A stretch of DNA of 64,000 bases from Phormidesmis priestleyi Ana (GTDB lineage: Bacteria; Cyanobacteriota; Cyanobacteriia; Phormidesmidales; Phormidesmidaceae). This document shows positions 19,986-21,158 of the stretch, piece after piece. Positions within the stretch are counted from its first letter, which is position 1, and each line of letters starts with the position of its first letter. The notes under the pieces were generated by a model. That model searched no databases. It was not told the origin of the DNA and saw only the letters and a program-made list of their open reading frames with translations. The translations under genes were made by a program, and so were the position numbers. Location: assembly GCA_001314865.1 (NCBI GenBank), contig LJZR01000003.1:140463-204462 (forward strand). The letters are read 5' to 3'.

Positions 19986-20023
19986 CTAGGCAATAATTTT
20001 GCTAGGGAATGACTAGGCAATGA
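19986..20023. repeat. 11-bp tandem repeat over the methylase stop codon
   Basis: CTAGGGAATGA (20002-20012) and CTAGGCAATGA (20013-20023) in tandem, with CTAGGCAATAATTTTG (19986-20001) as a longer third copy. The minus-strand stop is the CTA at 20015-20013. Confidence 0.8.
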
Positions 20024-20858
20024 TCAGAACTTCGGTGATTTTGCCGCGTTTGCTGGCTTTAGAGTTGATAGAACGCGCTGCTGTAATGGTTTTAATATCA
20101 AAGCCGCTATACAGTTCGCGGATGAAGGCGCAGTCGGAGTTGGAGGCGAGTACTTTGACTTTTTGCTGGGCGAGCTGGGCGATCGCCTCTTTCAATGCGG
20201 TTTGTTGCGGCTCGGCAAATGAGTAGCGGCTGTAGGCTGTGAACTTGCTGGTATCGCTGAGCGGATGATAGGGCGGATCGAAGTAGACGAAGTCTTGAGG
20301 GGTGGTGGCACGCGCGAGCACCGTTGAGAAGGGTCGCGTTGAGATCTCAGCGATTTGTAGCGCGGCAGAGGCAGGGCGTAGCAAGTCGGGCGCGCAGATT
20401 TTAGGACTTTTGTAGCGCCCGATGGGGACGTTGAAAAATCCTTTTGAATTTTCGCGGTAGAGGCCGTTGTAGCAGGTTTTGTTGAGATAGATAAAGCGAG
20501 CGGCTTTTTGCACGGGGTCGGTTGGTTGCTGCGATCGCACGCTGTAATAATGCGTTTCGCAGTGGTCGGCCTGATGCGCGTTTAGCTGCTGAATGAGGTC
20601 TTCTACGCGATCGCGCACGCACTGATATACATTCACCAATTCAGGATTAACGTCGCTTAAATACGCTGTTTTTCCTTGTGCCCTCAGCTGCGCCGACAGA
20701 TAAAAAAACAGCGCCCCACCGCCCAAAAACGGTTCGTGATAGCGCTCAAAATCGCTGGGTAAAAAGGGTTTGTACTGTTCGATGAGCCTGGTCTTTCCAC
20801 CCGCCCATTTTATGAACGGACGGGCGATCGCGATCGAGTGATGTAATGAGCTATTCAG
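20013..20858 (-). CDS. Dam-type DNA adenine methylase, no canonical start codon
   Basis: N6-adenine methylase of the D12 class. SAM-binding motif FIKWAGGK is encoded at about 20816-20793 and catalytic motif DPPY lies near 20280. The frame is open from the TGA just above ~20905, but between it and the FIKWAGGK motif there is no ATG, GTG or TTG. The first TTG (20726) is past motif I and would remove the cofactor site. Possible starts are CTG at 20858, or ATA at 20888. I annotate from CTG 20858 as a guess. The target is presumably GATC-like, which would overlap HIP1 (GCGATCGC) sites. Confidence 0.75.
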   Translation of the reverse strand: MNSSLHHSIAIARPFIKWAGGKTRLIEQYKPFLPSDFERYHEPFLGGGALFFYLSAQLRAQGKTAYLSDVNPELVNVYQCVRDRVEDLIQQLNAHQADHCETHYYSVRSQQPTDPVQKAARFIYLNKTCYNGLYRENSKGFFNVPIGRYKSPKICAPDLLRPASAALQIAEISTRPFSTVLARATTPQDFVYFDPPYHPLSDTSKFTAYSRYSFAEPQQTALKEAIAQLAQQKVKVLASNSDCAFIRELYSGFDIKTITAARSINSKASKRGKITEVLIIA

Positions 20859-21158
20859 CGGTCTGTCCAGAGGTCTTAGGTCTTCTATTAAGATGGGTCG
20901 TCAGACATGGGTCATCAGACATGGGTCAAAAGAGTGTCGGCGAGCGGCGAATGAGAACGAATACAAAGGCTCCGTCCTATCTCATCCGTTACATCAGTGG
21001 GTCGCTAGTGGGTCGCTAGTAGGTCGCTAGCAGGTTGCTTTGGTTACACAGGATGATTATCCTTTGCGGTAGGATATCAATGCGGTTAAACATCGGGGTT
21101 TATACAGCTCGTTTACAATACCGTTTTACTTGACTATAGCGACTTATACGCCGAGACC
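20859..21158. other. Divergent gap with two short tandem arrays
   Basis: 300 bp between the methylase and DUF751, transcribed away from each other. It holds three ~14-bp copies of GACATGGGTCATCA type (about 20892-20932) and four 11-bp copies of GTGGGTCGCTA type (20997-21038). Promoters for both genes must lie here; none is clear. Confidence 0.6.

Follow-up and report, generated by a model that had tools for sequence, protein, structure and literature searches.

The window analysed here, a stretch of 64,000 nucleotides on contig LJZR01000003.1 of Phormidesmis priestleyi Ana, holds on its minus strand an intact and constrained dmtA ortholog that has no canonical start codon, and by the evidence the loss is recent. 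The reading we favour, tentatively and at somewhat less than an even chance, is that of a functional orphan DmtA which recently lost its canonical start and whose translation would start, weakly, at CTG 20870 or CTG 20858, both near-cognate codons. By this proposal, small changes in a repeat-prone leader would recently have removed the ATG or uncoupled it from the frame, and the protein would still be made at a low level, most likely from one of these two in-frame CTG codons. Initiation at either would give an N-terminus of ordinary family length, and a maintenance methylase could work at low copy number. The functional reading draws on the completeness of the Dam protein, its full set of invariant residues, a low omega, its position as the only close Dam in the genome and the Synechocystis counterpart stated to be essential; against a CTG start speak the alignment of relatives' starts on an out-of-frame codon, the weak Shine-Dalgarno-like matches and the rarity of CUG initiation.

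The methylase lies in a stop-to-stop frame of 295 codons plus stop (20900-20013). The original prediction had given the extent as 20013-20910, which overshoots the upstream end of this frame by 10 bases. As had been predicted, the SAM-binding motif FIKWAGGK, read directly from the frame, is intact and in frame (20816-20793), and we take it to be motif X in the alpha-class naming. Downstream follow PFLGGG (20732-20715), presumably motif I, then YNGLYRENSKGFFNVPIGRY (20471-20412), which alignment identifies as the counterpart of a similar stretch in DpnM and Escherichia coli Dam presumed to act in GATC recognition, and the catalytic DPPY (20279-20268, from the frame translation and alignment), presumably motif IV. 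FIKWAGGK, PFLGGG, FNVPIGRY and DPPY are all intact. The protein belongs to the Dam family by the TIGR00571 profile (284.2 bits against a cut-off of 114.85, covering positions 2-266 of 267), and PF02086 matches over positions 1-253 of 253 (218.5 bits, 1.6e-64, cut-off 22). It is a complete Dam-family adenine methylase and, of the orphan DmtA type, is expected to act on GATC because of its similarity to DpnM and E. coli Dam.

FIKWAGGK and the stop codon ahead of it are 28 codons apart, and ATG, GTG and TTG are all missing from this interval, just as originally described, so that the gene lacks the start ahead of the conserved domain that an ordinary gene would have. The first canonical codon in the frame is TTG 20726, which is past FIKWAGGK and inside PFLGGG; initiation there was rejected, as the product would be without FIKWAGGK, and read-through of TGA 20903 from ATG 20915 was judged unlikely. 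A scan for the near-cognates CTG, ATT, ATC and ATA, with coordinates computed from the frame, found ATC 20894, ATA 20888, CTG 20870, CTG 20858, ATC 20834 and ATC 20828 before FIKWAGGK. CTG 20858 and ATA 20888, the two candidates proposed earlier, are thus real in-frame codons, but CTG 20870 and the three ATC codons had been overlooked. About 25% of random 28-codon stretches would also be without all three canonical starts (worked by hand as (58/61)^28), and it is therefore the conservation of the gene alone that gives the absence its weight.

Among other loci carrying the motif on a frame of at least 200 codons, a canonical start is present in 62/62. With the window the count covers 63 loci and 57 distinct proteins, out of 68 loci of which L088, L089, L090, L091 and L181 were unmatched by the pattern; separate inspection found canonical starts in L088-L090. 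From one search that returned 80 loci, starts were inspected in L003-L016 only, leaving out the 66 more distant ones, and the ortholog set excludes fragmentary or interrupted matches (among them the second copies of G010 and those in G019, G030, G031, G036 and G060) as well as the matches in G022 and G026. The family search covered 63 genomes, and widening it to the order gave the same 63. Within the contig, comparison with two congeners took in about 101 distinct conserved genes and found none but dam startless (1/71 against G004 and 1/51 against G003, dam in both), a startless gene being one of a set of non-overlapping genes with at least eight identical residues ahead of its first canonical codon; cases with fewer would be missed. 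Four control directions gave 0/74, 0/52, 0/22 and 1/21, and the single case (nine residues) is a G003 gene whose true start probably lies just downstream. An earlier base-rate script, which had called 51/152 frames startless, was discarded since its alignments ran into untranslated sequence and shadow frames were counted.

The gene body is not visibly decaying. The methylase frame has no internal stop, and the protein retains 81/81 residues that are invariant across 51 further orthologs (identity 52% or more), a count from which the five loci below 52% (L182-L186) were left out. In a codon model omega was 0.129 on the window branch against 0.088 elsewhere (2dlnL 1.33, not significant) and 0.131 on the branch of L085, in which an ATG is present; these estimates are rough because pairwise dS to the genus relatives, computable for four of five, ranges from 1.38 to 1.95. 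When a neutral period at the tip was profiled, the best fit was 5% of the branch with an upper bound of about 17%, and full neutrality of the branch fell 9.1 log units short of that fit. A calculation by hand indicates that a neutral period longer than about 3% of the branch would be expected (95%) to have changed at least one of the 81 invariant residues. The frameshifts, stops and relaxed constraint of a pseudogene body were not found, and only a very recent loss would fit; the earlier suggestion of a gene that had lost its start and was decaying finds no support in this body.

No other close Dam occurs in the genome, which is 98.8% complete. A second Dam gene, part of what the original prediction had named as counting against it, did not turn up as a close copy, and the only other D12 gene found (L002, G000:C81:8612-12190) is 29% identical, with 131 bits to TIGR00571. 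The protein encoded next to it, on its downstream side, matches HNH weakly, at a score under the cut-off, and the two are perhaps a restriction-modification pair. The methylase profiles besides match two genes of N6/N4 type and two of m5C type. Close orthologs occur in six of the seven genomes of the genus, the window's included, at 72-77% identity to the five congeners; congener G002 is without one and has instead a copy of 48% identity. Beside dam stand a protein of 312 aa that no Pfam family matches and a divergently oriented DUF751 protein, neither of them a restriction partner, and synteny with the gene on the DUF751 side is seen by eye in four congeners, so that the gene is placed as an orphan and as an ortholog of dmtA.

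The G002 copy of the gene that in the window lies downstream of dam (L193, G002:C409) adjoins a 246-aa gene, and no dmtA was seen in 1.5 kb. Another Dam-type methylase, sharing 48-50% identity with that of the window, is found in G006 (L089), G001 (L090) and G002 (L088). The one in G006 adjoins a PD-(D/E)XK protein (168 bits to PDDEXK_11) and a protein that scores 54.7 bits in a Shedu SduA C-terminal match, and the one in G001 has, by eye, a similar-looking 164-aa neighbour. Loci of this type are perhaps restriction or defence loci missing from the window's genome (G000), a search of which found no Dam of the 48% type.

HIP1, whose relevance had been proposed from the outset, is abundant, with 1.15 sites per kb on the contig, and CGATCGCGATCGC, a HIP1 site with a second GATC, lies within the N-terminal codons themselves (20836-20824, minus strand). 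According to the available text of PMC4390886, a high HIP1 frequency generally accompanies GATC methylases across cyanobacteria, dmtA is present in almost all cyanobacteria outside Group C1 and absent from one incomplete genome, and it is disrupted in Trichodesmium and UCYN-A. Loss of dmtA thus occurs but seems uncommon, given its presence nearly throughout cyanobacteria and the close copies in six of seven genomes of the genus.

The 5′ end of the gene is rich in repeats. The 150 bases ahead of FIKW hold three exact tandem repeats, of unit length 6, 7 and 14 bp: a repeat of unit at least 6 occurs in 8/55 other orthologs, one of unit at least 7 in 3/55, and the latter also in 20/2000 shuffles of the window stretch. 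The exact 7-bp repeat has two copies (20884-20871) and the 14-bp repeat 2.6 copies (20928-20893, its exact part 20928-20901), both on the minus strand, while an 11-bp repeat of about four copies (21039-20996) lies in the gap that separates dam from the divergently oriented DUF751 gene. ATG 20922 opens a 23-codon upstream frame (20922-20851, minus strand) that runs one base off the methylase frame and stops beside CTG 20858. The 7-bp repeat sits between this out-of-frame ATG and the methylase frame, and one unit of it shifts the frame by a single base, which equals the offset. The repeat may therefore have uncoupled ATG 20922 from the methylase, though this is weak evidence, since with two alternative frames it is not unlikely that one of them is open. 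A start so far upstream would besides be an innovation, since in L084, L085 and L087 a stop stands one to three codons before the ATG. Changes in copy number of the 14-bp repeat were dismissed as a switch, as stops close the frames (by hand).

Inspection by eye finds ATCTTCRRTAGAG just before the start in L084, L086 and L087 (in L086 before the inferred older start site) and TATAAT at the same position in L085, and the window has the similar ATCTTAATAGA at 20894-20884, a putative promoter with a very short leader. A promoter scan returned one minus-strand site, 21080-21053, where 0.9 would be expected by chance. In L086, from G006, a 14-bp imperfect duplication is seen by eye and the position matching the L087 ATG reads ACG, so that the start codon there seems to have been moved by the duplication; in L083 the only start is TTG. 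Taken together, these two cases point to a start of dmtA that is labile in the genus.

CTG 20870 (20870-20868) lies at codon -18 from the F of FIKW and CTG 20858 (20858-20856), the earlier candidate, at codon -14, both within the range of start positions of other loci. When relatives were aligned under 18 settings each, the ATG of L085 fell on the out-of-frame AAG 20877 in 18/18 and that of L087 in 17/18; the ATG of L084, the sole relative pointing in-frame, fell on CTG 20858 in 10/18, and L086 gave no consistent position across settings. A rare start, as proposed, is possible, but alignment with the relatives' ATGs favours no single one of the in-frame candidates. A match by eye of CTG 20870 to the relatives' ATG was abandoned, the systematic alignment being against it, although spacing, again by eye, would favour this codon if the second 7-bp copy is new. 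CTG 20870 is preceded by two pyrimidines (CT), and pyrimidines before the start have been linked to initiation in cyanobacteria in the text available of PMC5622118, which also gives CUG starts as very rare (two of 61,358 ancestral AUG starts changed to CUG). The Shine-Dalgarno-like match is weak at both CTGs (-1.5 and -3.0 kcal/mol), several relatives' ATGs also being without a strong one, and RNA accessibility singled out no start codon.

That the gene is already silent, its start lost so recently that the body is intact for want of time to decay, we consider unlikely, though with a substantial claim to attention. The missing canonical start and the disturbed, repeat-rich leader speak for it, dmtA is described as broken in Trichodesmium and UCYN-A (PMC4390886, in part), and congener G002 lives with the 48% copy only. 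What weighs against silence is that no second lesion has followed (0/81 invariant residues changed), that no more than about 17% of the branch can have been neutral, a bound which the invariant residues lower to about 3% when worked by hand, that the Synechocystis counterpart is stated to be essential, and that G000 is without the 48%-type Dam as a stand-in. Still less probable is a 5′ end that was misread or misassembled, or a mixed culture, with a canonical start in the real gene. Such an error would suit the three exact repeats upstream of FIKW and the finding of just one startless gene among about 101, but conserved queries were split across frames in 0/43 and 0/33 cases, so that indel errors seem rare in the contig, and its only four Ns in 289 kb are about 145 kb away. 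Single reads, moreover, normally span repeats as short as 7 and 14 bp. In congener G004 one conserved gene (G004:C1:132634-134566) is apparently split across two frames, possibly a broken gene or a sequence error there.

Quite improbable in our view is translation that begins at ATG 20922 and enters the methylase frame through a frameshift, through reinitiation at CTG 20858, or in those cells that carry another number of 7-bp repeats. The 23-codon frame ending beside CTG 20858, with an offset equal to the 7-bp unit modulo 3, speaks for it, and a transcript from the promoter-like site 21080-21053, should that site be real, would include ATG 20922. This site is no more than chance would give, though, no recoding signal was recognised by eye, ATCTTAATAGA, which resembles the possible promoter of relatives, is downstream of ATG 20922, the stops ahead of the ATG in L084, L085 and L087 would make an upstream start new, and an open second frame is in itself not improbable. 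Two copies of a 7-bp unit are also few for frequent slippage, and we regard it as very improbable that the repeat is a genetic switch whose copy number would decide production of the HIP1-associated GATC methylase, giving phase-variable methylation in a cyanobacterium. In the titles and abstract openings of the literature searched, no match was found on cyanobacterial Dam start codons or on methylase phase variation and tandem repeats. A functional DmtA with weak near-cognate initiation remains the reading that we prefer.

A strain whose only close dmtA copy has no normal start offers a natural test. If its GATC sites are methylated, the gene starts at a codon usually ignored by annotation pipelines; if they are unmethylated, GATC methylation is missing from a strain that is naturally rich in HIP1, with consequences for the question whether HIP1 and viability depend on it.

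Proven cases of genes without ATG, GTG or TTG in the coding frame are Streptomyces sigR with GTC and E. coli infC with ATT (PMC5472188, in the text available). Low, IF3-limited output would be a mechanism common to these and the window gene; their starts were shown by experiment, whereas that of the window is a candidate not common to the relatives examined. At the level of the protein, DpnM of Streptococcus pneumoniae (2dpm; residues 26-293 aligned, E 3.2e-61) and E. coli Dam (4gbe; residues 20-293, E 1.8e-44) are of the same fold family, and their FNVP-GRY and DPPY stretches match. DpnM differs in presumably belonging to a restriction system, and E. coli Dam is an orphan enzyme, as we read the window gene to be, from another phylum. 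DmtA of Synechocystis (M.Ssp6803III, slr1803), an orphan GATC adenine methylase stated to be essential for viability (PMC6604393, in the part available), is likewise a Dam-family protein in a HIP1-rich genome, a likeness drawn apart from the slr1803 sequence itself, and what sets the window gene apart from it is the lack of an ATG, GTG or TTG start.
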